Assembly (NCBI RefSeq): GCF_019976975.1
Contig: NZ_AP024630.1
Location: 2,170,001 to 2,234,000 of the forward strand
Length of the DNA stretch: 64,000 nucleotides
Origin: Arthrobacter sp. NtRootA1
GTDB lineage: Bacteria; Actinomycetota; Actinomycetes; Actinomycetales; Micrococcaceae
Direction of reading: 5' to 3'
The position numbers were made by a program, and so were the translations under genes. Shown in pieces: positions 23,472 to 37,955 of this stretch (within the stretch, counting starts at the first letter, position 1; each line of letters begins with the position of its first letter). The notes below the pieces were generated by a model, which worked only from the letters and a program-made list of their open reading frames with translations, was not told the origin of the DNA and made no database searches.

Positions 23472-24851
23472 GGGACTGTCCGATAAACGGTGTGTGGGCT
23501 CCGGCGGTTTTCATTGTTTGATGCTTCTTTCGAACCGTCCGGCGAACGTTATGGCGAACGCGTTGAGCGCGGGCTTCCACCTCATGGTCCAGCGTGCTCT
23601 TCCGCCGCCCGTTGGATCAAGGGATCTGGTGACCAGATACAGGCATTTCAGGGCAGCATTCTCGTTCGGAAAGTGACCTCGGGCCCTCACGGCCCTGCGG
23701 TAGCGGGCGTTGATCGATTCGATCGCGTTCGTCGTGCAGATAACCCTCCGGATCTCGACGTCGTATTCCAGGAACGGCACGAACTCCGCCCAGGAGCACT
23801 CCCAAAGCCGCACGATTGCCGGATACCGTTGTCCCCACTCTGCCGTGAATTCAGCGAACCGGTCTTTGGCTGCCTGCTCGGACGGGGCGGTGTACACGGG
23901 TTTGAGTGCCTTCACGATGCCGTCGCGGTGTTGGCGGCCGGCATAGCGGAAGCTTTTTCGGATCAGGTGAACGATGCATTGCTGCACGATCGTGCGTTCC
24001 CATGTGGTCGTGATCGCTTCCGGCAAGGCCCTTGAGCCCGTCGCAGACAGCGATCAACACATCTTCCACACCCCGGTTCTTCAACTCGGAGAAGAACTGC
24101 AGCCAAAACCGGGCACCCTCGCCACTGTCACCGGCCCAGATACCCAGGATGTCCCGTTCCCCGTTCGCGGTTACTCCCATGACGACATAGAACGGGGTAT
24201 TGCGTACCTGCCCGTCACGGACCTTGACCACGATCGCGTCAACGAAGAGCACCGGATAAACCGGATCCAGCGGCCGGGAGGACCATTCGGCCAGTTCGGC
24301 TGCGACTTTCTCCGTGATGCGGCTGATGGTGTCTTTAGAAACTCTGGCCCCTAAACCTCCTCGAAATGCGCGGCGATTTCCCCGGTAGTCAGCCCACGTG
24401 CCGAGAGCGAGAGCACGACCTCGTCGATCCCGTCCAAAAGCCGTCTCCGTTTCGGCACGATCATCGGCTCAAATGACCTGTCCCGGTCCCGGGGCACCTC
24501 AATCTCAACCGGGCCGATCTCGGTCAGCACGGTTTTTGATCTCGTGCCGTTACGCATGTTCGCGGCGACCGGTTTCTGGCCATGCTCATGCCCGAGGTGC
24601 TCGGTCAGTTCCGCGTCCAGTGCCGCTTCCAGGACGTTCTTCGTGAGCTGGTTCAGTAGTCCGCCAGGGCCCACCAGGCTCACGCCCTGTTCCTTGGCCT
24701 GCGCGAGCAACCGCTCCGCAAGCTCCTTCTGGTCAATGATTTCTCCCGTCACAGGATCGATCATCATCCCTGTCATCTCGGTCGCGGATTCTGACACGGC
24801 CGTCTCCTTCGGATCAGGCCGAACCCCACACACCGTTATTCAGACAGTCCC
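23472..24851 (-). mobile_element. IS256-family insertion sequence (inactive)
   Basis: A 1380-base element bounded by imperfect 27-base inverted repeats: left 23472-23498 begins GGGACTGTCCGATAAACGG, and right 24825-24851 begins (minus strand) GGGACTGTCTGAATAACGG; both end in TGTGTGGG. A single Mutator-type transposase frame fills it on the minus strand. I could not find the 8-base target duplication expected for IS256 elements, so the ends may be off by a few bases or the flanks rearranged. Confidence 0.88.
23511..24833 (-). pseudogene. IS256-family (Mutator) transposase with two compensating frameshifts
   Basis: The reading runs in three pieces. 24833-24351 covers the N-terminal part (LLNQLTKNVLEAALDAELTE, TGEIAAHFEEV, stop). 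The middle is in a different frame (LFVDAIVVKVRDGQVRN to VCDGLKGL). The C-terminal part from about 24026 returns to the first frame (PEAITTTWERTIVQQCIVHL to FERSIKQ). One base appears lost near 24351 (EVYGARVSKD becomes EV-stop) and one gained near 24027. The two catalytic Asp of the DDE site (LFVDAI, VCDGLK) are still readable. All domains are present, so the inactivation is recent or, less likely, a sequencing artefact. Confidence 0.88.
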
Positions 24852-25293: not shown

Positions 25294-25312
25294 GTGTGCA
25301 CAATGTGCACAC
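25294..25312. promoter_or_regulatory. Perfect 19-base dyad GTGTGCACAATGTGCACAC
   Basis: A perfect palindrome around a single central base at the start of the left island repeat. A near-identical dyad (GTGTGCACGTTGTGCACAC) lies at 25777-25795 in the same repeat, and half of it survives in the right repeat near 37,770. Such symmetry suggests a protein-binding site, possibly for a recombinase or repressor of the lost integration module. Confidence 0.55.
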
Positions 25313-25404
25313 CTTTCGCCTCGGATTGCCTCGTACAAGCGCCGGGCTGGCCCGGATTCCGCAGGTTTCCGCGACTTCCCAGCAATATCAAGGCCGGGAA
25401 TCGC

Positions 25405-25426
25405 GTTCGAGTCCCACCTCGGGCAC
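25405..25426 (+). other. 3'-terminal fragment of a tRNA-Leu gene (left att-like core)
   Basis: Twenty-two bases beginning GTTCGAGTCCCACC and ending CTCGGGCAC match the T-loop, T-stem and acceptor strand of actinobacterial tRNA-Leu. The 5' part of a tRNA (acceptor GCCCGAG, D-arm, anticodon) is absent upstream, so this is not a functional gene. tRNA 3' ends are common integrase attachment sites. Confidence 0.7.
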
Positions 25427-25433
25427 GGCATAA

Positions 25434-25454
25434 CCCCTCGTCAGAGGGGTTTTT
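25434..25454 (+). terminator. Intrinsic terminator after the left tRNA-Leu fragment
   Basis: Stem CCCCTC/GAGGGG with a four-base loop, followed by five T. An identical copy is at 37416-37436. This is the natural terminator of the ancestral tRNA gene, carried along with the att segment. Confidence 0.8.
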
Positions 25455-25776
25455 GCTTTTAACTGTTGACAAACGTTGACAAGTCCCGCTGACTTGTTGT
25501 TCCGGCTGGTGCCTGGCCGCCGGAATCGGCCTGTTCAGTTTGGATGTGGGAGCGGGGTTGGCGTCCTGGCTGGTGGGCGCTCCGCTGGCTCTATGCTGCG
25601 GTCATTCGAGTTCCTTCTTTCGGTTCTGTCCGGTAGGTCTGGGGCGGCCTACACCTGTTCATGGGCTAGGGGATTAGGTACGACATGACTTCCGCAGATT
25701 TCCATCTCGTCGGTTTCAGCCATGAGATTTCCGGCATAGCACGGCGCCGAATACTTGCTTTGTCGGGCCAAGAGAG

Positions 25777-25795
25777 GTGTGCACGTTGTGCACAC
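25777..25795. promoter_or_regulatory. Second 19-base dyad GTGTGCACGTTGTGCACAC
   Basis: Matches the dyad at 25294-25312 except at two central bases and is followed by TTAAGTCTG, a sequence also seen after the half-site near 37,780 in the right repeat. The role is unknown; likely the same binding protein as the first dyad. Confidence 0.5.
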
Positions 25796-26183
25796 TTAAG
25801 TCTGTTTTGTTTCTGACCACGGTCTGCTCTCTTTCTTGCCTTCATGTGTTCATTTCGCCCGCCGGATTCGGCGACATGACAAGGCAAGCACCCATGGTGC
25901 TGTCCCGGCGCTTCGTCTCGTTCTTGGTGAGCAGCTGCATTCCAGCGACGAGGGTGACGGGGCTGTGCTGTCTCGAGACCGTCGGGCTGTCAGGTTTGGG
26001 TGTGGTTCAACGTGACGGGATTGGCATCTTTCGCATAGGGATCACGGCGGGCCCTTGGCTCAATCCCATCAGGGTAGCGGGCGCGGCGCTATGTCGGGCC
26101 CAACCGAAAGACTAGTCACGCCACAACGCAAGGACTGCCGCTGAGATGCCATCGTTCCCAACGGGTCTCGGGCGCCTCTCACG

Positions 26184-27269
26184 TCACAGTGCGTCCAGCC
26201 AGTAGCGGTCACGGGCCAAAGACCTGAGTGTGAGCGCCTCCTGCGGCACCCGAATGCCGGAGCGCAGCATGTCGGCGGCTTCCAGCATCAATCTTGCGTC
26301 CTCAAGCCATCCGACGAAGGCGCCAGTCTGTTCAGCGGTGAGGGGTGGCTGGCCGCCCTGGCGTATGCCACTGCCCAGCAGGGCGCGATACAGATCGAGC
26401 GCCGGGGTAACGGGCGGCAGCCTCTCTCGTGCCGCGGTTTCGGCGGTATTGCGAGGGATGCGCAATCCGGCGGCATCTAGATCGCCAAAGTACCGCACAC
26501 GCTCCAGGCCGGGCAGGTCGCCGACCGACCGCACGGAAGCCTCGAACGCGCCTCCGGCGCCCCATGCAACGTGGCCGACGGGCCCCGGATTTGGCGCCAG
26601 AACAGTACGAATGCTGTGGAAGGTGTTGTCGTTCTCGACCACCAGCAGTACGGGCCCGTCTCCGATTCGAACGACGGGCAGGGGTGGGTGGGTGCGGAAC
26701 GTTCGCAGCAGAGTGAGGCTGAGCCGTTCCGGCGCGAACACATTCGTGGTCAGGAGGCCATCGAGCGCCTTCTCGTGCCCGAGAACCTCCAGCGATCGCT
26801 CGCGCAGCGGTATGACGTCGGCTTCGCGGCCGTGGTCTCGGAGCCAGTTGTTGACCAGGCGGAGCTGGGCGACCTGCCCCAAGGTCAGGCGGGTGCGCAG
26901 CACCCAGGCAAGTTCAGGGCGCCAAGCGACGGTGCGGGCGAGTGCAGCCGCGGACTCAGAGGGCGCCGGCGGCGCCAGCGTGAGCCTGGACGGCAGGTGT
27001 GGCCAGGCGTGGATGTCCTGCTTCTTCGATGGAGTCACCAGCCCGGCTGCCGCTAGCTGCTCGATGGCTTGCGCGAGCCCAGCCCGCCGGTCGGGCCGTC
27101 CGGCGGAAGCGGGGTCGGCCGTGGCCCACAAGGGCCACAGGTCCGTCAGGGTTACTGTCCGCCCAGTGACACGCTCAAGCAGGGTCCCCAGCCGGACGGC
27201 GCGCGGGCTCAGTTGCACTGCAGTGCCATCTCCCGGCTGGCCGGGTTGACGACTGTCCCTAGCGGTCAC
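26184..27269 (-). CDS. Wadjet JetD/MksG-like TOPRIM nuclease subunit
   Basis: A 361-residue protein, last in a four-gene operon; its start overlaps the SMC stop by four bases (ATGA). The C-terminal half is TOPRIM-like, as in DUF2220 of JetD: Glu212 in VVENDN after a hydrophobic strand, and Asp263/Asp265 in YFGDLDAAGLRIP, the acidic residues that hold metal for DNA cleavage. The N-terminal about 180 residues are helical and winged-helix-like, where JetD has its DUF3322 arm. In known Wadjet systems this subunit cleaves plasmid DNA once the SMC complex has extruded it. The similarity is by motif and gene order, so the assignment to Wadjet is inferred. Confidence 0.75.
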   Translation of the reverse strand: MTARDSRQPGQPGDGTAVQLSPRAVRLGTLLERVTGRTVTLTDLWPLWATADPASAGRPDRRAGLAQAIEQLAAAGLVTPSKKQDIHAWPHLPSRLTLAPPAPSESAAALARTVAWRPELAWVLRTRLTLGQVAQLRLVNNWLRDHGREADVIPLRERSLEVLGHEKALDGLLTTNVFAPERLSLTLLRTFRTHPPLPVVRIGDGPVLLVVENDNTFHSIRTVLAPNPGPVGHVAWGAGGAFEASVRSVGDLPGLERVRYFGDLDAAGLRIPRNTAETAARERLPPVTPALDLYRALLGSGIRQGGQPPLTAEQTGAFVGWLEDARLMLEAADMLRSGIRVPQEALTLRSLARDRYWLDAL

Positions 27270-30200
27270 GGCATCTCCATCGGCTCATCGGCGTCGCGCA
27301 CTTCGCGGGCAGGAGTGGCCGGGTGGCGGTGGACACGGGTCGCGGTGACGGTGCCTGGCGCGGACGGACCGCCGTTCTGGTCCCCATTGGCGGCAAGTTC
27401 GCCGTCAGAGTATGGGGCTGGCAGCTTGCGGCGCATGACCTCGGCGACCCGAATGTGCTTCAGCCCGGCGCGCAGGTCGGCGTCGTTGCGCAGGCGCACC
27501 CACAGCGGGAACGCGGCGAGCACCCGGTCATCGGAGATGCCTGTCGTGTAGATCAATTGGACACCCAGAGAGCGGGCGACGGACTGTTGCAGGTCGATCA
27601 GGTAGGAGGCGTTCGCGCGCCCGATCGGGTTGTCGAGGAAGAGAACGCCGGAGTGCTTGGACCGCATCTGGCCGCGTTCGTTCGCGGCGAGAGCAGCCAG
27701 AGTGCAGTACAAGACGATGGCTGCAGTCAGCTCCTGCCCGCCCGAGAACACATCGTTCATCTCCTCGATACTGACCCGTTCGTCGCGGAGCACGGAGTCT
27801 GGCTTGAGGACGTCTACGGTGAACCCCGTTGGAACCGAGGCGTTGAGGGCGTTAAGCAACAGCGCCATCCCGTCGCGGCGCATACTGCGGGACTGTGTGC
27901 CGACAGCGCGGGAAGCGTACTCACTGGCGACCCGGTCGACAACCTCTCCGACGCGCACGCTGATCGCGGTGCGGTCCGGCTCGCTGAACGCGATCCGCAG
28001 GAACGGGCGTCCGCCCCATTCAGCGAGGTCCTCAGGTAACCGGGACAGTTTGGTGGCCCGGCGTAGGGTCTTGAGGGCCTGGTCGACCAGCGCGCTGAGC
28101 CGGTCGACGATGGTCTTGCGGTGCCTGTTGGCGTTCTCCAGGTCGCTGGTCAGGGTCGCCAGTCGAGCCTGGAGAGAGATGGACCACTCGGCAGCACGTA
28201 CCGGGAGCGTGTTCCGGTTCGACTCCAGTATGCTGCGCCGCGCCTGGGTGGCCAGCGATTCATACCGGGCCAGGCTGGCGTACGCGACCAGCTCCTGGGC
28301 TGCGTCCGCGAGCTCGTTACGGCAGCTCTCGAGCCGGTCCTTGGTGTCACGCAGTCTGTCGACCGCGACGGATGCAGCCTGCTGGGCAGCGGCCTCGTCG
28401 GCGGTGTACGCCGTCGCAGCAACGCCTGCTGGGACACCCTCAGGGACTCCTCCCAGGAGGGTGACCAGTGGCAGCAGCGCCTCGTTGATGCCGCGGGCGG
28501 CGTCGTCAGCTGCCCGGCGCTGCTGCTCGAGCTTGCTGACGATGCCGGTCGCTTCGTCGAGGCGCTGCTGAGCCTGCCGGGACTCCTGCTGCGCTTCGAC
28601 CTGGAGCTCACGGCCATGCCTGGGGTTGGTGGGCTGCCATTGTTCGCCAAGGCTGGTCCACGATCGCCGGCCAGGCTCGGTCGGAGAAGCATCCAGAACC
28701 GCCTGTTCCAGCTGCCCGGCGCGCTTGCCGAGGCGGTCGGCTTCGGCCCGCAACGTCGAGACGGCGCGGCGTGCGTTGTCGGCGCCGACGCTCCACGACG
28801 CACGGTCGGCACCCGCTGGTGTCGCGCGGAGCCGTTCGGCCTCGACGACGTGCCCGGCGTCGCGCAGGGCAAGCGCAGAGCGCTTTGACTGGACCTTCTC
28901 GGCGGCCTCCTCGGCGCGGCGGCGCAGGTCGGCGTCGACGGCTGCGGCCAGGTAGGTCTGCTGGGCTGCGGCTGCTGCCGCCCGCAGGTCAGCCAGTGAC
29001 GTCGTCGGAACTTCCTGCGAGGGCTGCCCGCTTGTTGAGGGCACTTCGTCACGGGCGGCCCGGTGGCGTCGAGCCTGCCCACGTGCCTGCTCAGCCAGAC
29101 GGGCGTGTTCCTCCTGTGTCTGCTGGGCACGTTCACGGCGGTCGAGTGCGTCGCTGGCGGCTGCGTTTTGCCGGTGGACCTCTGCCTCGTGCTCTGGTAG
29201 GAGCTGCTGCACCTGGGCGGCGGACTCGACGAGGTAGGCGAGGCCCTCCAGCTTCGCAGCGCGTTCTGAGGCGCGCCGCTCTTGGCCCGCTATCTGCTCG
29301 ACGTCGGAATCCGCCCGCTCGTGATCGGCAGTGGCCGTCTCCAGGTCTCCCTCGGCAGCGTCGAGACGCTCCTGCGCGGCGCTTGCGCGAGTGGCGGCGT
29401 CGGCTGCAGTCTCGCGGAGCTTGGCAAGGTGTCCCGGAGGGTTCGAATTCCGCCATCGGTCGAGGTCGCTGCATGCGGTGGTTACTATGCCCAGCTGCTC
29501 GGCGCCGAACTGGAGCTGCTCGCCTCGGCGGGTCATCTGCTCGCGCAGTTCCTCGCGCCGCTGGGCGGCGGACTCCTCGTCGAACAATGCCGGGGTCGGG
29601 TCTACCACGAACACGTCCGAGCACTCGTCTCCGTCCCGCACGGCGGGTGCGTCGACCTCTGAGATGCTGGCGTTGATGCTGAGCAGATCGGCGCCGGACC
29701 CGACCGCGACTGCCGCTGCCGGAAGCAGCCGCGCCTCGGTCAGGGCCTGACGTGCTGCGGGCATCTGGTCGCGGTCGATGACCACCACCCCGTCAGCCAG
29801 GGCGGGGTGTTCGGCGATCAGCTCAATGCGCTGTGCGGCCGGAACGGCATCGTGCAGATAGCGCCAGCCGGCGTGCGCGACGACGCTGGCGGCGTCCAGG
29901 ACCTCCAATGCCCGTTCGACTTCTTCGCGCGGAGGGAGCAGCCCGCCCGTGCCGAGCGCCTCGACAACCCGTGCATCCTCGCGCTGGGCTGTCCGCGACT
30001 CATCGAGGTGCTCGGTGTGGTCCACGATGTCGCGGGCGAGCTGGGCAAGGAGTCGGTCGCATGACTCCTCGAGCTCATCGACGCTCAACGCGTCACCGGA
30101 CTCCGGTCTGTTGTCCTTGGTGGGGGCGGACTCTGCTCCGGCGGCCTCTGCGAGCACGGTGAGATGGCCCAGTCGCGTAGCCTCGTCCTCGACTGCGCGC

Positions 30201-31951
30201 AGGTCACGGGAGGTGCTGTCGGCGGCGGCGGTTCTGGTCCGGAGCTCCTTCTCGGCTTCCTTGACCGCGCCCGTGGCTCGTTTCACCTTCGTTTCCGCGG
30301 CGGCGGCTTTGTGCTTGGCCTCGGCGAGGCGCGTGACGATGGTGGCGTGGACGCCTTGGGCGGTCTCCACGACGTTGGGCACCTGCCCGGGCGTGGTCCC
30401 GGCTGGCACCAGCCCGGCAGCGGCCTCGGCGGTGAGCCTATCAGTCGCCGCGCCAACCGTCTGGACGGCCGCCCGGTGCCGCTCACTGGCGGCGGCGGCG
30501 GCCCCCAGCGCACGGCTGCGGGCAGCATCGGCGTCGGCCGCTGCCTGCTTGGCGGCGGCAACTTGGGCGTCGTTGTCGGAAGCCTCCCGGTCACTGGCAT
30601 CGGCCTCGGCCAGGTACTTCGCAAGCAGCCGGCCAGCGGCTTCGTCGCGTCGTGCCAGCGCGGGCGCGGCGTCATCGTCGGCGGCCGCGACCTGCTTGGC
30701 CAGATCGTCGGCGGTCGCGATGGCTTGGTCACGTTCCTCAATGGCGGCGATGGTCTGCCATCCGTGCAGCTCCAGGTCGGCGGCAATGAGCTGCTCCTTG
30801 GTGTCTGTCGCCTGCGTCTCGGCTTCGTCAAGCTCGAGCTGGAGCGTCTGGCGGCGGACCTCGTTGAGGAGCGCGCGGGCGGCGTCACGCTCGGTAGACC
30901 GGGTGACGACGGCCGTCTGTGCGGCTGCGTATTCTGCGGACAGCTGGGACACGTTCTCCCGCTCGAACCGCAGGCGCAGGTCGAGCTCAACGGCCAGGGT
31001 TTCGGCGCCACGGAGAGCGGCTGCCGCGTCGTGTGCGGCCTCCTGGTGGGCGATGTACGCGACTGAGAGCGGGTCCAGGCAAGCGATGACCCCCTCGAGG
31101 AAGTCGCGCTCTAGCAGCATCTGCTCGCGGTCGGCGAGGTTCGCTGCCCACTGGCTGAACGTCTCGGCGACCGAGGAGGCGTCCTTGGGATCGGTGACGG
31201 TCGTCAGCAGCCAGTCGACAAACTCCCTGGAGGAGGCGTACTTGAACGCCTTGGCGGCTTCGCCCTCGTCGACGTTCATCCGGCGCTGGATGTCGAATAA
31301 GTCCGGTTCGATACCGCGCTCGCGCAGGTGTGCGCGCCACCGACCCTGGTCGTCGCCGAGCCAATTTAGCTCGGTGGTCGCCTCGAGCCGGTCTACTTCC
31401 TGCACGGCCTCGCGGAACCCTTCGAGCCGTCGTCGGTGCCCGTCGTGAGCGACCGGAAGCGTCTCGAGGTCTAGTGATTGGCTGGGCCGGAAGGAGTACC
31501 AGGCCTCGGCGACCGGGTACTTGTCACCGCTGCGAGTTCGCCGCTGGTATACCTTGGCGGTCACGAGCCGTTCCCCGGTGGTCACGTGCATCCATTCCAG
31601 CGCTACATGGCCGGTGTCGCCGTCGAGGACGAACTTGTCGAGCGAGGCGCCGCCGACGGTGTTGCGGCGCCCGGGCAACACCACGCTGAACAGCAGCTTG
31701 AGCAGGACCGACTTGCCGCCGCCGTTCTCCAGCAGCAGCAGCGAGAAAGGCGAAGGCCGCCGCGTGAGGGCGTCGAACAGGCTCCGCGGAGGGACTTGCT
31801 CCCCGAGGCCGGACAGGTCAATGGTGACATCGGAGTAGCGGGCACCGCGGGGGCCGATGCTAACTAGGCGAGCTCGGTTCAATTCGTACATGGTGGCGTT
31901 CAGCTCCCGGAGCGGATGTTGCGGATCGTCGCGATGGATGTGGCAGTACAT
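27266..31951 (-). CDS. Large SMC-like coiled-coil ATPase (Wadjet JetC/MksB-like)
   Basis: A 1561-residue ABC/SMC-type ATPase. Walker A is at residues 75-81 (ENGGGKS). Long Ala/Glu/Arg-rich coiled coils run from about 290 to 1370, interrupted near 690-850 by a globular, hinge-like segment (VVVIDRDQMPAARQAL). The ABC signature FSGGQ is at 1402-1406 and Walker B LFLDNP at 1437-1442. The residue after the Walker B Asp is Asn1441, not the usual catalytic Glu. It is longer than typical JetC. The C-terminal about 60 residues are disordered. ATG 31951 lies 7 bases after the upstream stop; an in-frame ATG at 31891 has a better GGGAG site. Confidence 0.82.
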   Translation of the reverse strand: MYCHIHRDDPQHPLRELNATMYELNRARLVSIGPRGARYSDVTIDLSGLGEQVPPRSLFDALTRRPSPFSLLLLENGGGKSVLLKLLFSVVLPGRRNTVGGASLDKFVLDGDTGHVALEWMHVTTGERLVTAKVYQRRTRSGDKYPVAEAWYSFRPSQSLDLETLPVAHDGHRRRLEGFREAVQEVDRLEATTELNWLGDDQGRWRAHLRERGIEPDLFDIQRRMNVDEGEAAKAFKYASSREFVDWLLTTVTDPKDASSVAETFSQWAANLADREQMLLERDFLEGVIACLDPLSVAYIAHQEAAHDAAAALRGAETLAVELDLRLRFERENVSQLSAEYAAAQTAVVTRSTERDAARALLNEVRRQTLQLELDEAETQATDTKEQLIAADLELHGWQTIAAIEERDQAIATADDLAKQVAAADDDAAPALARRDEAAGRLLAKYLAEADASDREASDNDAQVAAAKQAAADADAARSRALGAAAAASERHRAAVQTVGAATDRLTAEAAAGLVPAGTTPGQVPNVVETAQGVHATIVTRLAEAKHKAAAAETKVKRATGAVKEAEKELRTRTAAADSTSRDLRAVEDEATRLGHLTVLAEAAGAESAPTKDNRPESGDALSVDELEESCDRLLAQLARDIVDHTEHLDESRTAQREDARVVEALGTGGLLPPREEVERALEVLDAASVVAHAGWRYLHDAVPAAQRIELIAEHPALADGVVVIDRDQMPAARQALTEARLLPAAAVAVGSGADLLSINASISEVDAPAVRDGDECSDVFVVDPTPALFDEESAAQRREELREQMTRRGEQLQFGAEQLGIVTTACSDLDRWRNSNPPGHLAKLRETAADAATRASAAQERLDAAEGDLETATADHERADSDVEQIAGQERRASERAAKLEGLAYLVESAAQVQQLLPEHEAEVHRQNAAASDALDRRERAQQTQEEHARLAEQARGQARRHRAARDEVPSTSGQPSQEVPTTSLADLRAAAAAAQQTYLAAAVDADLRRRAEEAAEKVQSKRSALALRDAGHVVEAERLRATPAGADRASWSVGADNARRAVSTLRAEADRLGKRAGQLEQAVLDASPTEPGRRSWTSLGEQWQPTNPRHGRELQVEAQQESRQAQQRLDEATGIVSKLEQQRRAADDAARGINEALLPLVTLLGGVPEGVPAGVAATAYTADEAAAQQAASVAVDRLRDTKDRLESCRNELADAAQELVAYASLARYESLATQARRSILESNRNTLPVRAAEWSISLQARLATLTSDLENANRHRKTIVDRLSALVDQALKTLRRATKLSRLPEDLAEWGGRPFLRIAFSEPDRTAISVRVGEVVDRVASEYASRAVGTQSRSMRRDGMALLLNALNASVPTGFTVDVLKPDSVLRDERVSIEEMNDVFSGGQELTAAIVLYCTLAALAANERGQMRSKHSGVLFLDNPIGRANASYLIDLQQSVARSLGVQLIYTTGISDDRVLAAFPLWVRLRNDADLRAGLKHIRVAEVMRRKLPAPYSDGELAANGDQNGGPSAPGTVTATRVHRHPATPAREVRDADEPMEMP

Positions 31952-31958
31952 GTGGTGG

Positions 31959-32783
31959 TCACAGCTGGCTCACCGTCTGGTCGGTCCACTCGACGGGCGT
32001 AAGCGTTCCGGTGCCGTCGGTGATCTCGGTGATGCCGAGGGAGAGTAGCTCGGCGAACATGCGGCTGCCGGCCTCGGCAACCTGGATGCGGTACCGGCTG
32101 GTGGTGGCGTAGGTGCCGCCGTCCTCTTCGCTGCGCTTGACAAGCATGCCTTGGTCGGCCAGGAAGGTGAGAGCTTTGCCAACTATGCCGATGGTCGAGG
32201 ACGCCACCCGGCGTCCGTCGCCGGAGCCGGGTGTCGCGGCACGGCGCTGGTAAACCCGCCAAGCTGTTTCCAGATCGGGGGTATCCGCTGACGGATCGAC
32301 GTCGTCGCCGGCTTCGGCGGCGGCCTCACTGAGGCGGCGGCAGGCTTCACGGACAAACGCCTCGACGCCGTTGACGGTGACGCGGCCCACGTAGGCAGGG
32401 TTGGAAAGGTCGGCGGGGCGAGGATAGGCCAGGGTGGCGGCGCCGAGATGCGCGAGTGCGTGCAGGACGCGTTCTGCGGCCTTGCCTTCCCCACCGGAGC
32501 GGCGGGCGTAGTCAGTCATCCGGACTGCGAAGACGCTTTCCTCGCTGCTGGCGACGACGAGACCGTGCCGGTCGTCCGCGTCTAGGATGACGAGATCCAG
32601 CCCCAGGCAAATGGCTTTGACGAGTTCGGCGAACCCGTCATCATGGTGGAACCGGCGGACGAGTTCGGCGTAGGTTTCGTCGCGCGCTGGGCGCAGCTTG
32701 GGGCGCAACGCAAACGCCACCAAACGGGAGGCATCGGCGACGGCCCCGACGGAGCTGGCAGTGGTCTGACCGGTTGAGCTCAT
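31959..32783 (-). CDS. Wadjet JetB/MksE-like (KITE-type winged-helix) subunit
   Basis: A 274-residue soluble protein whose start overlaps the upstream stop by four bases. It is the second gene of the SMC operon, where JetB/MksE stands in known systems. The sequence shows an N-terminal helical region, a strand pair (LVILDADDRHGLVV) and a C-terminal winged-helix-like unit (VGKALTFLADQGMLVKR, then a beta hairpin GTYATTSRYRIQV). This matches the tandem winged-helix build of KITE proteins that bind kleisin. I cannot place it in a named DUF with certainty; the role follows from size, fold hints and position. Confidence 0.65.
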   Translation of the reverse strand: MSSTGQTTASSVGAVADASRLVAFALRPKLRPARDETYAELVRRFHHDDGFAELVKAICLGLDLVILDADDRHGLVVASSEESVFAVRMTDYARRSGGEGKAAERVLHALAHLGAATLAYPRPADLSNPAYVGRVTVNGVEAFVREACRRLSEAAAEAGDDVDPSADTPDLETAWRVYQRRAATPGSGDGRRVASSTIGIVGKALTFLADQGMLVKRSEEDGGTYATTSRYRIQVAEAGSRMFAELLSLGITEITDGTGTLTPVEWTDQTVSQL

Positions 32784-34483
32784 GGTGCGTTCTCCTGGAT
32801 CATGTTGCTGTTCATGTTCCCCTCCGGTTTTACGTTCGTGGGGCCGGCATCAATGGTCTCGGTCCCATCGCTGGCCCAGTGGCTGCCGTCGGCGGTTTCG
32901 AGGACGATAGGTTGAGTGTCGCCGGACCGGGTCTGGAGGACCTCGGCGCGGGCGACCAGGAGATCGGCGCCGGCGAACGCCGGGTCCTGGAGCACGGTCC
33001 CGTCATCAAGGGCGATTAGCACAGTTGCGTCGTGGTGGCGTCGTGCGACACCGATCTCCTGCGCAGCCAGGGCAAGGACTCGGACCACGACCAGCAGCGG
33101 CAGGTCTTCAGCGTCGGGGTCCTCGGACTGACGTGCGCGTGCGTCGGCCAGCAGCCCGGACAGGCGCTGTGGCGCAGCGGGGTCGAGATCCAGGAGGGAT
33201 GCAAGATGTTCGTAGCTAGCGCCTGGGAACCGCGGCGGTTCCTCGTCGAGCTCGATTTCGGGATCCTCGATGAGGCCGCCGAGGGGGTCTCGTTCGGCCG
33301 GCGGCGTGATGAGTCCTTCGAAGAGGTCGACCAGACGCAGCGCGTGCGGGACGATGAGGCCGGCGGCAGGGCTGAAGAAGCGCAGCAGGGGCACGTCCGC
33401 TTCAGCGACGGGACGGGTTAGCACCGGCTGGAGCAGCTGGGCATGCAGGTCAAGGGCGGCCCGGATCGGTCCGGGGGCGAAGGTCTGGCGGTCCTGTTCG
33501 GCACGGAACCGGCGGCCGGCGGTCTGGAGGCCCGCTTGGAGCTGGTCGTGGCGGCGGAGGCAGTCACTTACGAGGTCGACCAGACGCGCTGCGTGCGCCT
33601 TGCGGGCGGGGGTGTCGGCGGTGTCGCGGACTTCGGTGAGGTTGACCAGAATGGCGTTTTCGGCCCGATAGCGGCCTTCGATGTGGGCGAGGGCTTCGTC
33701 GATAAACGCCGGCATGGCCTGGGCCCAGTCGACGTTACGGACATCACGGCTGGTGGCCTCGAGCCGTTGCCGGAGCATCTCGCCGTACTGGATGGTGCGG
33801 TAGCGGGCGTTTTGCGCCGCGGCTTGTGCTTCGCTGAGCCGGCCACGCTTTATGAGGATATCCAGGCGGACGTCGGCAGCTATATGCGCGGCTTCGAGGT
33901 CAACCTCGAGCGCGCCGACGAGGACATTCACAGCTTCGTTCGACGCGCGCAGGTAGAGGTCCCCGTCGAGGCCGCGCGTCTCCTCAAGCAGCTTGAAGTC
34001 GAAGGTGCGGCGCTCGTACCCGCCCGGCCCGGTCAGGCCATATACGGTGCGGAACCCGCGGTCAGTAGATCCGACGTTGAGGAGGTTCTCCAGCACCCAG
34101 CTCGCAACACGCTGATGTTCCGCGAGTGCGCGGTCTGGAGCTTGTGCGGTGACACCGGCGGCCAGATCTTTCAGCACGGACACGGGGCGGGCACCGGTGT
34201 CGAAGTCCATCGCGATGGTGACTAGGTCGATGGCGTGCAGCGCGAGCTCGGCCATCTGGTACACGGTGTAGTCGGCTGACTGTACTTGGGCCTTGCGGGC
34301 GTCAAGATCATGCAGCGGTGCCGTCGTCGCAAGCGCTTTCACCCGCTGGGCGAAGCCGGCCGAAGTCAAAGCCCTATCAGAGATAAGGTCACTTGCGGCA
34401 TCGTCAAACGGGCGGCCTGGCTCGAATTCGACTTCCATACAGGTCAGGGTAACGGCGAGCGGTGACATTATGGGCCGAGTCAC
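32780..34483 (-). CDS. Wadjet JetA/MksF-like (kleisin-type) subunit
   Basis: A 567-residue, mainly helical, acidic protein and first gene of the SMC operon. Kleisin-type partners (JetA, MksF, MukF) occupy this place and have similar length and composition. Visible parts are an N-terminal globular region (to about 250), a helical stretch with AQAAAQNARYRTIQYGEMLR, and a C-terminal region with a long acidic linker (DPEIELDEEPPRFPG). No enzymatic motif is seen. The GTG at 34483 lacks a clear ribosome-binding site; ATGs at 34468 and 34438 are alternatives. The assignment is mostly by operon position. Confidence 0.62.
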   Translation of the reverse strand: MTRPIMSPLAVTLTCMEVEFEPGRPFDDAASDLISDRALTSAGFAQRVKALATTAPLHDLDARKAQVQSADYTVYQMAELALHAIDLVTIAMDFDTGARPVSVLKDLAAGVTAQAPDRALAEHQRVASWVLENLLNVGSTDRGFRTVYGLTGPGGYERRTFDFKLLEETRGLDGDLYLRASNEAVNVLVGALEVDLEAAHIAADVRLDILIKRGRLSEAQAAAQNARYRTIQYGEMLRQRLEATSRDVRNVDWAQAMPAFIDEALAHIEGRYRAENAILVNLTEVRDTADTPARKAHAARLVDLVSDCLRRHDQLQAGLQTAGRRFRAEQDRQTFAPGPIRAALDLHAQLLQPVLTRPVAEADVPLLRFFSPAAGLIVPHALRLVDLFEGLITPPAERDPLGGLIEDPEIELDEEPPRFPGASYEHLASLLDLDPAAPQRLSGLLADARARQSEDPDAEDLPLLVVVRVLALAAQEIGVARRHHDATVLIALDDGTVLQDPAFAGADLLVARAEVLQTRSGDTQPIVLETADGSHWASDGTETIDAGPTNVKPEGNMNSNMIQENAP

Positions 34484-34743
34484 AGGGAGCCCGCTAGTTC
34501 TGACGCGGAAGGTAAGCGATAACGGAAGGTCAGTATACTGGTGATGACCCGCTTGTCCCGGTCCAAGTGGTGCGGCTCTCCCAGGTGAACCTTCGGGCCA
34601 ATAGCGGCCCCTCCTTCAGAAGGAGGGCGATGGGCTGACCAAAGATGTAGTCCCTTTATACCGGCTGACAGTGCGAGTTGTGCCTTCGGAGATGGCTCTT
34701 TGAATGACTTGCAATGCATATGCCTTCAAAGTCATAATTGCCT
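34484..34743. promoter_or_regulatory. Divergent intergenic region between the SMC operon and the toxin gene
   Basis: About 260 bases must hold promoters for both the SMC operon (leftward) and the toxin-antitoxin pair (rightward). A hairpin with an 8-bp stem (CCCTCCTT/AAGGAGGG, 34609-34627) is the only clear structure. No confident -10/-35 pair is named. TA antitoxins usually bind in this position and might affect both promoters, but no matching dyad stands out. Confidence 0.45.
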
Positions 34744-35157
34744 ATGGAACTTTTCTGGCCGGACAGCTTTGACGAGCAGCTGGACCGACTCGAAGAGGAG
34801 GCCGAAAGCGGTGATGAGAGGGCTAAGGCTGTATTCGAATATGTAGCCGCAGAGATGGACTATCTGCGGCGCCTGAGCGCACCACCCGCCGAAGAGACTC
34901 CGACACTCAAAACGGTGCGTCAGGCGAAGAGGTACCAAGTATGGCGGGTTTCTCACCCGTACCATCACGGGATCGCCGTCCGATTGATCGTCTGGTTTCC
35001 ACCCGATGAGAACACAGCGGTGGTGGCCCTGTTTTCAGGTGATAAAGCCAACATGGGCGATGTCTTCTACGACAGTGTGGGAAGCAGAGCTGACCAAATA
35101 ATCGATCAATGGATCAGAGAAGGGGAGGTTGATGAAAATGGTGAGGAAGACATTTAG
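34744..35157 (+). CDS. HigB/RelE-like toxin (type II TA)
   Basis: A 137-residue protein with the pattern of phage-derived Gp49-like/HigB toxins: a helical N-terminal part (FDEQLDRLEEEA), then a beta core with YQVWRVSHPYHHGIAVRLIVWFPP and VVALFSGDKAN, and a C-terminal helix. Such toxins are ribosome-dependent or free mRNA endonucleases. ATG 34744 is preferred over a TTG six bases upstream; no strong ribosome-binding site is seen. The end overlaps the start of the helix-turn-helix gene by 20 bases, giving a toxin-first order as in higBA. Confidence 0.78.
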   Translation: MELFWPDSFDEQLDRLEEEAESGDERAKAVFEYVAAEMDYLRRLSAPPAEETPTLKTVRQAKRYQVWRVSHPYHHGIAVRLIVWFPPDENTAVVALFSGDKANMGDVFYDSVGSRADQIIDQWIREGEVDENGEEDI

Positions 35158-35497
35158 GAAGGGCGATGACCGGCTCGGACGTATCCTGGCAAAGCCGGGT
35201 ATGACAGAACGCGTAGCCGAAATTCGGGAAGCTTCCGCACGCGAGGACCGTATTTACGCCCTTAACCTAGCCACAATTCGCAAGGCCGCAGAACTGACAC
35301 AGGATGACTTGGCCCAGAGGCTTGGAATAGATCAGAGTGTTGTTTCGAAGACAGAGCGCCGCGAAGACATGCTTCTGTCAACGCTTATGGACTATTTGTC
35401 AGCCGCGGGCGTAGAAGACGCAAAGATGGTGGTGCACGTTAACGGCCGCGAAATTGAACTGGACCTCCGCAGTCTGCAGCATCAAGTGCAGGGCTGA
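35138..35497 (+). CDS. HigA/XRE-family antitoxin
   Basis: A 119-residue helix-turn-helix protein. The XRE domain lies in the middle (LATIRKAAELTQDDLAQRLG, then VSKTERREDMLLSTL), with a C-terminal strand-rich tail (KMVVHVNGREIELDL). As an antitoxin it would bind the upstream toxin and repress the pair. ATG 35138 lies 9 bases after GGGGAGG; ATG 35132 and TTG 35129 are in-frame alternatives. The 20-base overlap with the toxin gene shows translational coupling. Confidence 0.82.
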   Translation: MVRKTFRKGDDRLGRILAKPGMTERVAEIREASAREDRIYALNLATIRKAAELTQDDLAQRLGIDQSVVSKTERREDMLLSTLMDYLSAAGVEDAKMVVHVNGREIELDLRSLQHQVQG

Positions 35498-35878: not shown

Positions 35879-37139
35879 ATGGCAAACGAACATCTGGAAG
35901 TCATCGCCGGGATCGACACCCACGCCGGTACCCACCACGTCGCCCTCATCACCGACACCGGCCGGCACCTGGCCGACAGGCAATTCCCTGCCGCGGGGTC
36001 CCGCTACCAGGGCATCATCGAGTTCATCGCAGAGTTCGGTCCGGTCCTCGCCGCCGGCGTGGAAGGGACCGGCAGCTACGGTGCCGAACTCTCACGCGTA
36101 CTCGTCCGCGAGGGCATTCACGTCGTCGAGGTGATGCGCCCGAACCGGCAGGCCCGCCGGCTGCAGGGAAAATCCGACCCGCTCGACGCCTATCAGGCCG
36201 CCGAATCGGTATTGTCCGGCCACGCCGGCGCCACCCCGAAATCCCGGGACGGAGCCGTGGAATCGCTGCGGGTACTGCGCGCCGAGCGCGCCACCGCAAT
36301 GCGCGCCCGGGTCGCCGTGATGGCCCAGGTCAAGGCGATCCTGGTGACCGCACCGGAAACGATCCGCGCCAGATACCGGGCCATGACCAGTCCCGCTTTG
36401 ATGGCCGCGCTGGAAAAGACCCGGCCCGCCGGACCGGCCTCCGAGCCACTCACCAGCACCGCGACCGTGCTCAAACGCCTCGCCGTCCGCTACCGGCACC
36501 TGCACCAGGAACTGGCACTGATCGACGCCGAACTCGACGCCATCCTCGCCCTCCACGCACCGATGCTCCGCGATCTCCAGGGCGGGCACCGACGTCGCCA
36601 GCCAGCTCCTCGTAACGGTGGGAGACAACCCCGAACGCGTGAGCTCCGAAGCGAAGTTCGCCGCACTGGTCGGCGTCGCCCCGATCCCCGCATCATCGGG
36701 AAAGACCGCCCGTCACCGGCTCAGCCGCGGCGGCGACCGGCAGGCCAACAAAGCCATCCACCGCGTGGTCCTCGTGCGGATGAGATACGACGCCAGGACC
36801 AGGGCCTATGTGGCCAGGCGACACCAGGAAGGCAAGAGCACCAAGGAAATCATGCGCTGCCTCAAGCGCTACGTCGCCCGGGAAATCTACGACCAACTCC
36901 TCCACCCGCGACCCGGCCCCGACGCCGGAACACTCCGGACGGTACGCACGACCAAGCAGCTGACCCTTCAGCAAGCCGCCGACGCCCTCCACGTCTGGCC
37001 CACCGCACTGTCCCGCCTCGAACGCGGACTCACCCACGACAACGACTTCCACCAACGCTACGAAACCTGGCTCAACTGCCAGTCCCCGGCAACCGTGCAC
37101 ATGCCGGATCCCGGGTTGGCCCGCGTGCTGCCTGCCTGA
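35879..37139 (+). pseudogene. IS110-family transposase with a 2-base deletion
   Basis: The N-terminal DEDD domain is intact to about codon 233 (AGIDTHAGTHH with catalytic Asp, GVEGTGSYG with Glu, SDPLDAYQAA with Asp). After LRDLQG the frame breaks near 36580; inserting two bases restores a GVGTDVASQLL reading. The second frame carries the C-terminal Tnp_20 domain (SEAKFAALVGVAPIPASSGKT with the catalytic Ser region) and an added helix-turn-helix-like tail (LTLQQAADALHVWPTALSRL), ending at 37139. The family is not known for programmed frameshifting, so it is read as inactivated unless the deletion is a sequencing error. Confidence 0.85.
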
Positions 37140-37386
37140 CCATGGCCGCGCAAGCCCCGGGGTCAAGGGCGGCCGCATGGCCGTCGCGCAGCGATCGCAG
37201 GAGCGACCCTTGAGGCCGGAGCGGCGGCCACGGTAACCTGCGCGGCCGCGTGGCTCAACAACCGTTGACAACAATAGGAGCATCAATGTCCACACTTTGG
37301 GCTTCGGTCTCAGTCGTACGTTGGCCGGACTGGCTCGGATTGGCGATGTTTCAGGTGTTCCCAGTGTTGCCAAGGCCTTGAATGCA

Positions 37387-37408
37387 GTTTGAGTCCCACC
37401 TCGGGCAC
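37387..37408 (+). other. 3'-terminal fragment of a tRNA-Leu gene (right att-like core)
   Basis: Twenty-two bases starting GTTTGAGTCCCACC and ending CTCGGGCAC. It matches the left fragment except at the fourth base. The upstream bases do not form the rest of a tRNA. Confidence 0.7.
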
Positions 37409-37415
37409 GGCATGA

Positions 37416-37436
37416 CCCCTCGTCAGAGGGGTTTTT
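37416..37436 (+). terminator. Intrinsic terminator after the right tRNA-Leu fragment
   Basis: Stem CCCCTC/GAGGGG, loop of four, then five T; identical to 25434-25454. Confidence 0.8.
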
Positions 37437-37955
37437 GCTTTAATGTGTGTACAAAGCTTGACATTTCCCTCTGTTTTGAGGTCCCGGGTGGTGCCTGGCC
37501 GCTGGGTTCGGCCTGTTCAGTTTTGGGTGGGGGAGCGGGTTCAGTGCCTTGGCTGGTGGGCGCTCCGCCAGCTGGGTTTTGGGGTCATTCAGCCCTCCTT
37601 TGCGGGTGTTGCGGTGGTTGCTGTTGGCCGTTCACTGCTTCATGGTTGTCGCGTGTGCCGATGACATGACTTTCACGGAAATTTTTGAAGAGTTTTTCCG
37701 GATCCGGTTCAACGATGCTTCCTGCCGCCTGCCGACTCGTCGTGTTTGTCCGGCCAAAGGTGGTGGGTACAGTGTGCACGTTTAAGTCTGCTTTGTTGGT
37801 GGCCACGGTTTGCTCGCTTTCTTGCTTTCACGTGTTCATTCCGCGTGCGGTCATCGGCGGCATGACTAAGCGCCAAAGCTCAGAGGCTGGGGTCGGCACT
37901 TGGTCCCATGTCTTGTTAGCAGTTGCATCCGAGCGACGGTGGGCGGCGAGGCTTT

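Follow-up and report, generated by a model that had tools for sequence, protein, structure and literature searches.

A predicted Wadjet type III operon in Arthrobacter sp. NtRootA1, with asparagine in the JetC Walker B motif and relatives that lack jetD

A 64,000-nucleotide stretch of Arthrobacter sp. NtRootA1 (contig NZ_AP024630.1, positions 2,170,001 to 2,234,000; referred to here as the window) carries four closely packed minus-strand genes, and the question is whether they encode a defence system, of which class, or a structural maintenance of chromosomes (SMC) complex that serves the chromosome. A preliminary description, made from the sequence alone, had proposed a relative of the plasmid-clearing Wadjet systems with the gene order JetABCD, possibly of a new subtype. 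The analysis points with good confidence to a Wadjet type III system that is complete and was acquired horizontally, and that would cut small circular DNA by loop extrusion and the JetD nuclease.

The operon and its assignment

The four open reading frames are intact, run from position 34483 down to 26184 (8.3 kb), and contain no internal stops:

32780 to 34483, minus strand: jetA (type III), subunit in the kleisin position, 567 amino acids (aa); PADLOC JetA3 (PDLC00567, E = 1.2e-167) and orthologue alignment
31959 to 32783, minus strand: jetB (type III), KITE-like subunit, 274 aa; PADLOC JetB3 (PDLC00573, E = 4.6e-5) and model match
27266 to 31951, minus strand: jetC (type III), long SMC ATPase, 1561 aa as annotated; PADLOC JetC3 (PDLC00588, E = 0, 1151 bits) and alignment
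26184 to 27269, minus strand: jetD (type III), predicted TOPRIM-type nuclease, 361 aa; PADLOC JetD3 (PDLC00594, E = 9.4e-95) and Pfam JetD_C

Because type III PADLOC profiles match all four proteins, three very strongly and JetB weakly (20.6 bits), the operon is, by profile matching, a member of the already described Wadjet type III, and the proposal of a Wadjet relative in JetABCD order is borne out. The Pfam JetD_C match in JetD scores 29.1 bits, above the cut-off of 22. Wadjet is reported to occur as types I–III, of which Wadjet-III has no hinge channel (PMC12647877). The operon shares with that class all four profile matches, the gene order and, going by the same source, the long SMC; it differs in the weak JetB match and is otherwise an ordinary member.

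The comparison with the other types is as follows. Type I (JetABCD/MksFEBG) has the same order of kleisin, KITE, SMC and TOPRIM nuclease, a JetB similar to the model described below, and Pfam JetD_C. However, the type I families DUF3375 (PF11855) and DUF4194 are not listed for JetA or JetB in Pfam at E-values up to 10, as the preliminary description had suspected; the profiles of JetA and JetB give no alignment with their type I counterparts, and JetC has about 1500 aa and an Asp-Asn Walker B, versus about 1120–1160 aa and Asp-Glu in type I. The missing DUF3375 and DUF4194 matches rule out a type I identity. Type II (TIGR02680) also has a long SMC but keeps Glu or Asp in its Walker B; TIGR02680 is not listed for JetC (NCBIfam, E up to 1) and has zero matches across the genome, which rules out type II. 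The MksBEF and MukBEF condensins consist of the same three kinds of subunit, and the window system differs from them by having jetD and by being accessory.

The length of the SMC had also been taken as a hint of a distinct subtype. This did not hold up: SMCs of the kind found in Wadjet-III are described as tending toward longer coiled coils, with few exceptions within that type (PMC12647877), and the length is expected because a long SMC is reported as usual in type III. A new subtype would fit the weak match of JetB to the type III profile and the lack of any NCBIfam match above a cut-off for the four proteins, but it is contradicted by the very strong JetA3, JetC3 and JetD3 matches and is most improbable.

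The junctions are tight, although not quite as first described. The jetA/jetB junction is an ATGA overlap and the jetB–jetC spacing is 7 bases as annotated, both in agreement with the preliminary description, whereas the four-base jetC/jetD overlap reads GTGA, not ATGA, because the jetD start codon is GTG. The lengths first given stand as annotated, except that the SMC is probably shorter. Conservation of JetC begins at Met21 (MYELNR), where M21, Y22, E23 and L24 do not vary among the 11 sequences aligned, and the jetC frames of Nakamurella silvestris and Actinoplanes couchii open at the equivalent of Met21 with no upstream start codon. For these reasons the true jetC start is probably at 31891, giving a protein of about 1541 aa and a gap to jetB of about 67 bases. 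The jetA start codon is uncertain because the first approximately 40 residues of JetA display no conservation.

A survey of gene neighbourhoods, a check named in the preliminary description, supports the set. The order jetA-jetB-jetC is found in 11/11 actinobacterial loci detected through JetA, so the grouping is not due to chance, and jetD follows jetC directly in eight of them. No jetD is present in N. silvestris or A. couchii (0 JetD matches in either assembly, the loss resting on the assemblies searched). At the remaining locus, L008, the contig end falls within jetC and a JetD match is found on another contig of the same assembly.

The JetB model, built from 12 sequences (predicted local distance difference test score, pLDDT, 71.5), gives as its best VIA-align match chain C of E. 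coli JetABC (8as8; Z = 7.9, 177/195 residues aligned, root-mean-square deviation 4.9). Second is chain E of Pseudomonas aeruginosa JetABC (8dk1; Z = 7.8), followed by MukE (7v8p; Z = 7.0) and MukEF and MukBEF chains (Z = 7.0–6.7). The top seven entries are all Wadjet JetABC, MukE, MukEF or MukBEF (Z = 7.9–6.7) and align 168–183 residues spanning positions 5–252; the next rows are origin recognition complex chains with a winged-helix stretch (Z = 6.5), which cover only positions 88–249. In a Foldseek search MukEF and JetABC chains lead as well (best E = 0.009). In the matched complexes the KITE chain was assigned by length; the structure table names only the complex. The modelled fold of JetB is KITE-like, at a Z just under 8. 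Structure prediction, also proposed at the outset as a check, thus agrees for JetB with the KITE of Wadjet and MukBEF but leaves the kleisin fold of JetA unconfirmed. Because the JetA model is poor (pLDDT 51), the kleisin role of JetA rests on gene position and the JetA3 profile.

JetD displays the TOPRIM residues pointed out initially, Glu212 and Asp263/Asp265; E212, D263, D265 and the Q343-E344 pair are invariant in 9/9 aligned sequences (window included; L006, L008 and L012, i.e. the two loci without jetD and the truncated one, left out). In MksG, E236 and D279 are reported as metal ligands, and an additional catalytic role is proposed for E349/E351 (PMC10123090). By motif, not by structure, JetD E212/D263/D265 would be equivalent to MksG E236/D279.

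Under the proposed mechanism the JetA-JetB-JetC motor (kleisin, KITE, SMC) would load on DNA and use ATP to extrude loops. Where the DNA is a small closed circle, extrusion would reach completion, triggering the JetD TOPRIM nuclease so that the circle is cut, while linear DNA and the large chromosome would escape cutting. Extrusion, the sensing of size and shape, and cleavage are here carried over from experiments on other Wadjet systems. JetABCD is reported to cleave circular DNA in an ATP-dependent manner, total extrusion followed by JetD activation is proposed, and the reconstituted complex is reported not to cut linear DNA (PMC10586767). This total-extrusion model is most likely transferable to the window locus.

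Several points weigh against an active type III Wadjet. The structural Z of JetB is just below 8, a range where chance or common arrangements occur. The JetA fold is unconfirmed at its low pLDDT, and the JetA profile has no match to type I JetA (hhalign probability 0.5; the JetB profile against type I JetB gives 0.7). Sequence searches of solved structures give only unrelated matches, both for the single JetA, JetC and JetD sequences and for profiles built from JetA, JetD and the C-terminal part of JetC. The main reason for caution is the Asn in the JetC Walker B motif, which is unexpected for an active SMC ATPase.

Genomic setting and distribution

The operon is accessory and horizontally acquired. 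A JetA search of 99 genomes finds only the copy in the window (0/60 others of the genus and 0/38 of the order, 0/98 other genomes in all), and a housekeeping locus in the host lineage is ruled out by that count. The GC content is 0.63–0.69 over 24–36 kb, versus 0.58–0.61 elsewhere in the window. The closest copies are carried by actinobacteria of other families and by a linear Rhodococcus plasmid of 77 kb. Identities to Nocardioides cremeus are 79/86/68/69% for JetA/B/C/D, and those to the Rhodococcus plasmid 78% for JetA and 83% for the JetC C-terminus. A linear carrier makes sense given that JetABCD is reported not to cut linear DNA (PMC10586767). Complete type III sets are found on plasmids of Rhodococcus, Streptomyces and Polaromonas, of which two are linear (77 and 417 kb) and the third is a 172-kb circle; the Polaromonas set keeps the gene order, and the annotation of its last gene reads Wadjet JetD-domain protein.

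The Wadjet interval, approximately 12 kb, is bracketed by two copies of a direct repeat of about 690 bp:

25301 to 25964, plus strand: left copy, with the 3′ end of tRNA-Leu(CAA); core at about 25360–25460, 20/20 tRNA-end bases
37284 to 37953, plus strand: right copy, 70% identical to the left, 19/20 tRNA-end bases

The genome has eight copies of this repeat, which share one strand and lie between 2.075 and 2.493 Mb. Five, including the left window copy, carry 20/20 of the tRNA-Leu(CAA) 3′-end bases; besides the right window copy, one has a small deletion in the tRNA end and one (L030) has no tRNA end. An intact tRNA-Leu gene lies at 1.9445 Mb, and a tyrosine-recombinase open reading frame starts about 0.1 kb beyond it. 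This arrangement is read as an old array of integrations at the tRNA-Leu gene. Only two of the six integrase-domain matches of the genome lie in the approximately 550-kb repeat stretch (1.94–2.49 Mb). This points to a long series of inserts, bounded by att sites, that depend on few integrases. When the flanking DNA was compared with 61 genomes of the genus, nine match the left flank and 41 the right (many of these matches are short); no genome was found with the two flanks adjoining, so that no empty site emerges from the comparison. A phage search gives no match.

Within the same interval a divergent gene pair lies beside jetA:

34738 to 35497, plus strand: two genes, the first for a 139-aa protein without a family match, the second for a 122-aa helix-turn-helix protein

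The pair is laid out like a toxin-antitoxin module, and such a function may be proposed from this layout.

The operon is flanked by broken transposase genes, of Mutator and IS110 type, at 23511–24833 and 35879–37139. The same genome carries at 4.836–4.850 Mb a type I jetABC set (DUF3375, DUF4194 and an SMC of 1156 aa; PF11855 matches its JetA at 2.4e-85) followed by an IS110-family transposase gene in the place of jetD. Apart from the jetD of the window, the genome has a single JetD_C match, a remnant interrupted by stops, at 1.173 Mb.

Such surroundings could belong to a decayed, inactive Wadjet copy carried in an integrated element. The broken transposases, the drift of the repeats, the type I set with no JetD match at its locus and an insertion-type gene directly after jetC, and the degenerate JetD_C remnant would all fit. 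However, the four type III frames are open over their whole 8.3 kb and retain the residues found invariant in orthologues, and decay of the window operon is very unlikely.

An asparagine in the JetC Walker B motif

The Walker A, FSGGQ and Walker B motifs first noticed in the SMC are all present: Walker A is ENGGGKS (K80), the signature FSGGQ occupies positions 1402–1406, and Walker B is LFLDNP (D1440, N1441). The Asn where a catalytic Glu is expected had gone unremarked. An hhalign alignment to type I JetC places N1441 on the type I glutamate E1073, although the matches that fix this register are modest (probability 29 and 49, E = 6e-4 and 1.8e-4).

The substitution is not peculiar to the window. 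Walker B is Asp-Asn in 42/42 type III JetCs whose motif could be read, a count of sequences of which several are near relatives of each other. They comprise the window, ten loci of the JetC alignment (L004–L007 and L009–L014; 11 rows with the window, L008 left out), five plasmid records from Salmonella, Polaromonas, Streptomyces, Rhodococcus and Microvirga (L051–L055), 16 loci L096–L111 and ten loci L135–L144. The 16 were found with a JetC C-terminal profile that contains the Asp-Asn pair and could favour it, the last ten through JetD and JetA matches. By comparison, type I JetCs show Asp-Glu in 7/7, and four type II JetCs show Asp-Glu in two and Asp-Asp in two; for types I and II the motif was chosen by visual inspection, as the candidate that follows the signature in register.

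The E1042Q substitution in the Walker B of C. glutamicum MksB is reported to impair ATPase activity (PMC10123090). Because Asn replaces the catalytic Glu of Walker B, hydrolysis by type III JetC would depend on another residue or be slow. A candidate replacement is D1474, an invariant Asp of the switch loop after Walker B.

Type III sets without jetD

With the JetC C-terminal profile, 16 of 396 genomes of the phylum give a match, 11 of them in one genus (here g31), which is probably Streptomyces. JetA matches are found in 147/150 g31 genomes, whereas JetD profile matches are found in 15/150, 11 strong (E = 3.7e-40 or lower) and four weak and short (E = 1.4e-7 to 6.2e-5); the profile was made from close type III relatives and at most 13 candidates were scored per genome, so that distant JetDs could be missed. 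All 11 genomes with a strong JetD have at least two JetA matches. In G619, a further genome, JetA matches twice and JetD not at all.

In 11/11 g31 core loci (L096–L106) jetA-jetB-jetC is present with Walker A, FSGGQ and the Asp-Asn pair, and no JetD signal is found within 11–20 kb around any of them (best tblastn E = 0.27). PADLOC applied to one core set gives JetA3 at 1.2e-185 and JetC3 at 0, with JetB unmatched. Neighbouring genes, counted where common to at least five loci, are partly shared: a GntR-type regulator is present in 8/10 other loci and further genes in 5–7. A pair of DUF742 and ATP/GTP-binding genes near the g31 jetABC is of a kind typical of Streptomyces conservons and, with the many species of the genus, favours naming g31 as Streptomyces. 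Median ratios of nonsynonymous to synonymous substitution rates are 0.16, 0.19 and 0.23 for core jetA, jetB and jetC (55 pairs each), values that indicate evolution under purifying selection.

The core copies form one supported group in the JetA tree (98/97) and in the JetB tree (99/98), 36 rows each, both with long branches and no outgroup. On these trees the JetD state changes at least three times, in the g31 core, N. silvestris and A. couchii. Loss of JetD is inferred rather than gain, because JetD presence is wider. A plasmid search for near relatives of a g31 jetABC gives no match.

These jetD-less cousins, near-universal in g31 and under purifying selection, lend some weight to the view that the window operon is an SMC complex of chromosome maintenance, similar to MksBEF, with JetD as an accessory and no role in defence. 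For the window operon this is nevertheless unlikely: the system is absent from the 98 other genomes among the host's relatives, jetD is intact, overlaps jetC by four bases and keeps its catalytic residues, and the locus is high in GC and bracketed by att-like repeats. The preliminary description had allowed that a housekeeping system at the same locus in all relatives would speak against it; nothing of the kind is found in the host lineage, though the jetD-less cousin in g31 would be such a system. A type III Wadjet that cuts circular DNA thus stays the preferred reading for the window.

Enrichment of Wadjet in Actinobacteria (42% of genomes) is reported, as is its location toward the ends of Streptomyces chromosomes (PMC10482375); 'JetD' does not occur in the main text of that source, and the portion consulted has no mention of a jetD-less core set. 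In the consulted portion of PMC13121528, on SMC in Streptomyces, the word Wadjet is absent. Among open-licence papers, where silence is weak evidence of absence, none was found on asparagine in this Walker B or on jetABC as a core set in Streptomyces.

Taken by itself, the window locus is one more type III Wadjet in a known class and of modest interest. Two observations at the level of the family, the Asn Walker B and the nuclease-free core sets, raise interest beyond it. A tentative reading, put at slightly less than an even chance, is that type III is an SMC family without the canonical Walker B Glu, which would hydrolyse ATP by another chemistry or on a very slow clock, and also that the form without nuclease has become, by domestication, a core SMC complex of the chromosome in a genus, probably Streptomyces, with linear chromosomes. 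The g31 sets look like a parallel case to MksBEF, one that would have arisen from a different type of Wadjet. An SMC family lacking the residue whose mutation in other systems serves to block ATP hydrolysis would offer a direct test of the timing of loop extrusion. The near-universal nuclease-free jetABC of one genus would be a natural example of how a machine for cutting plasmids can become one that the cell retains, a change proposed until now for MksBEF.

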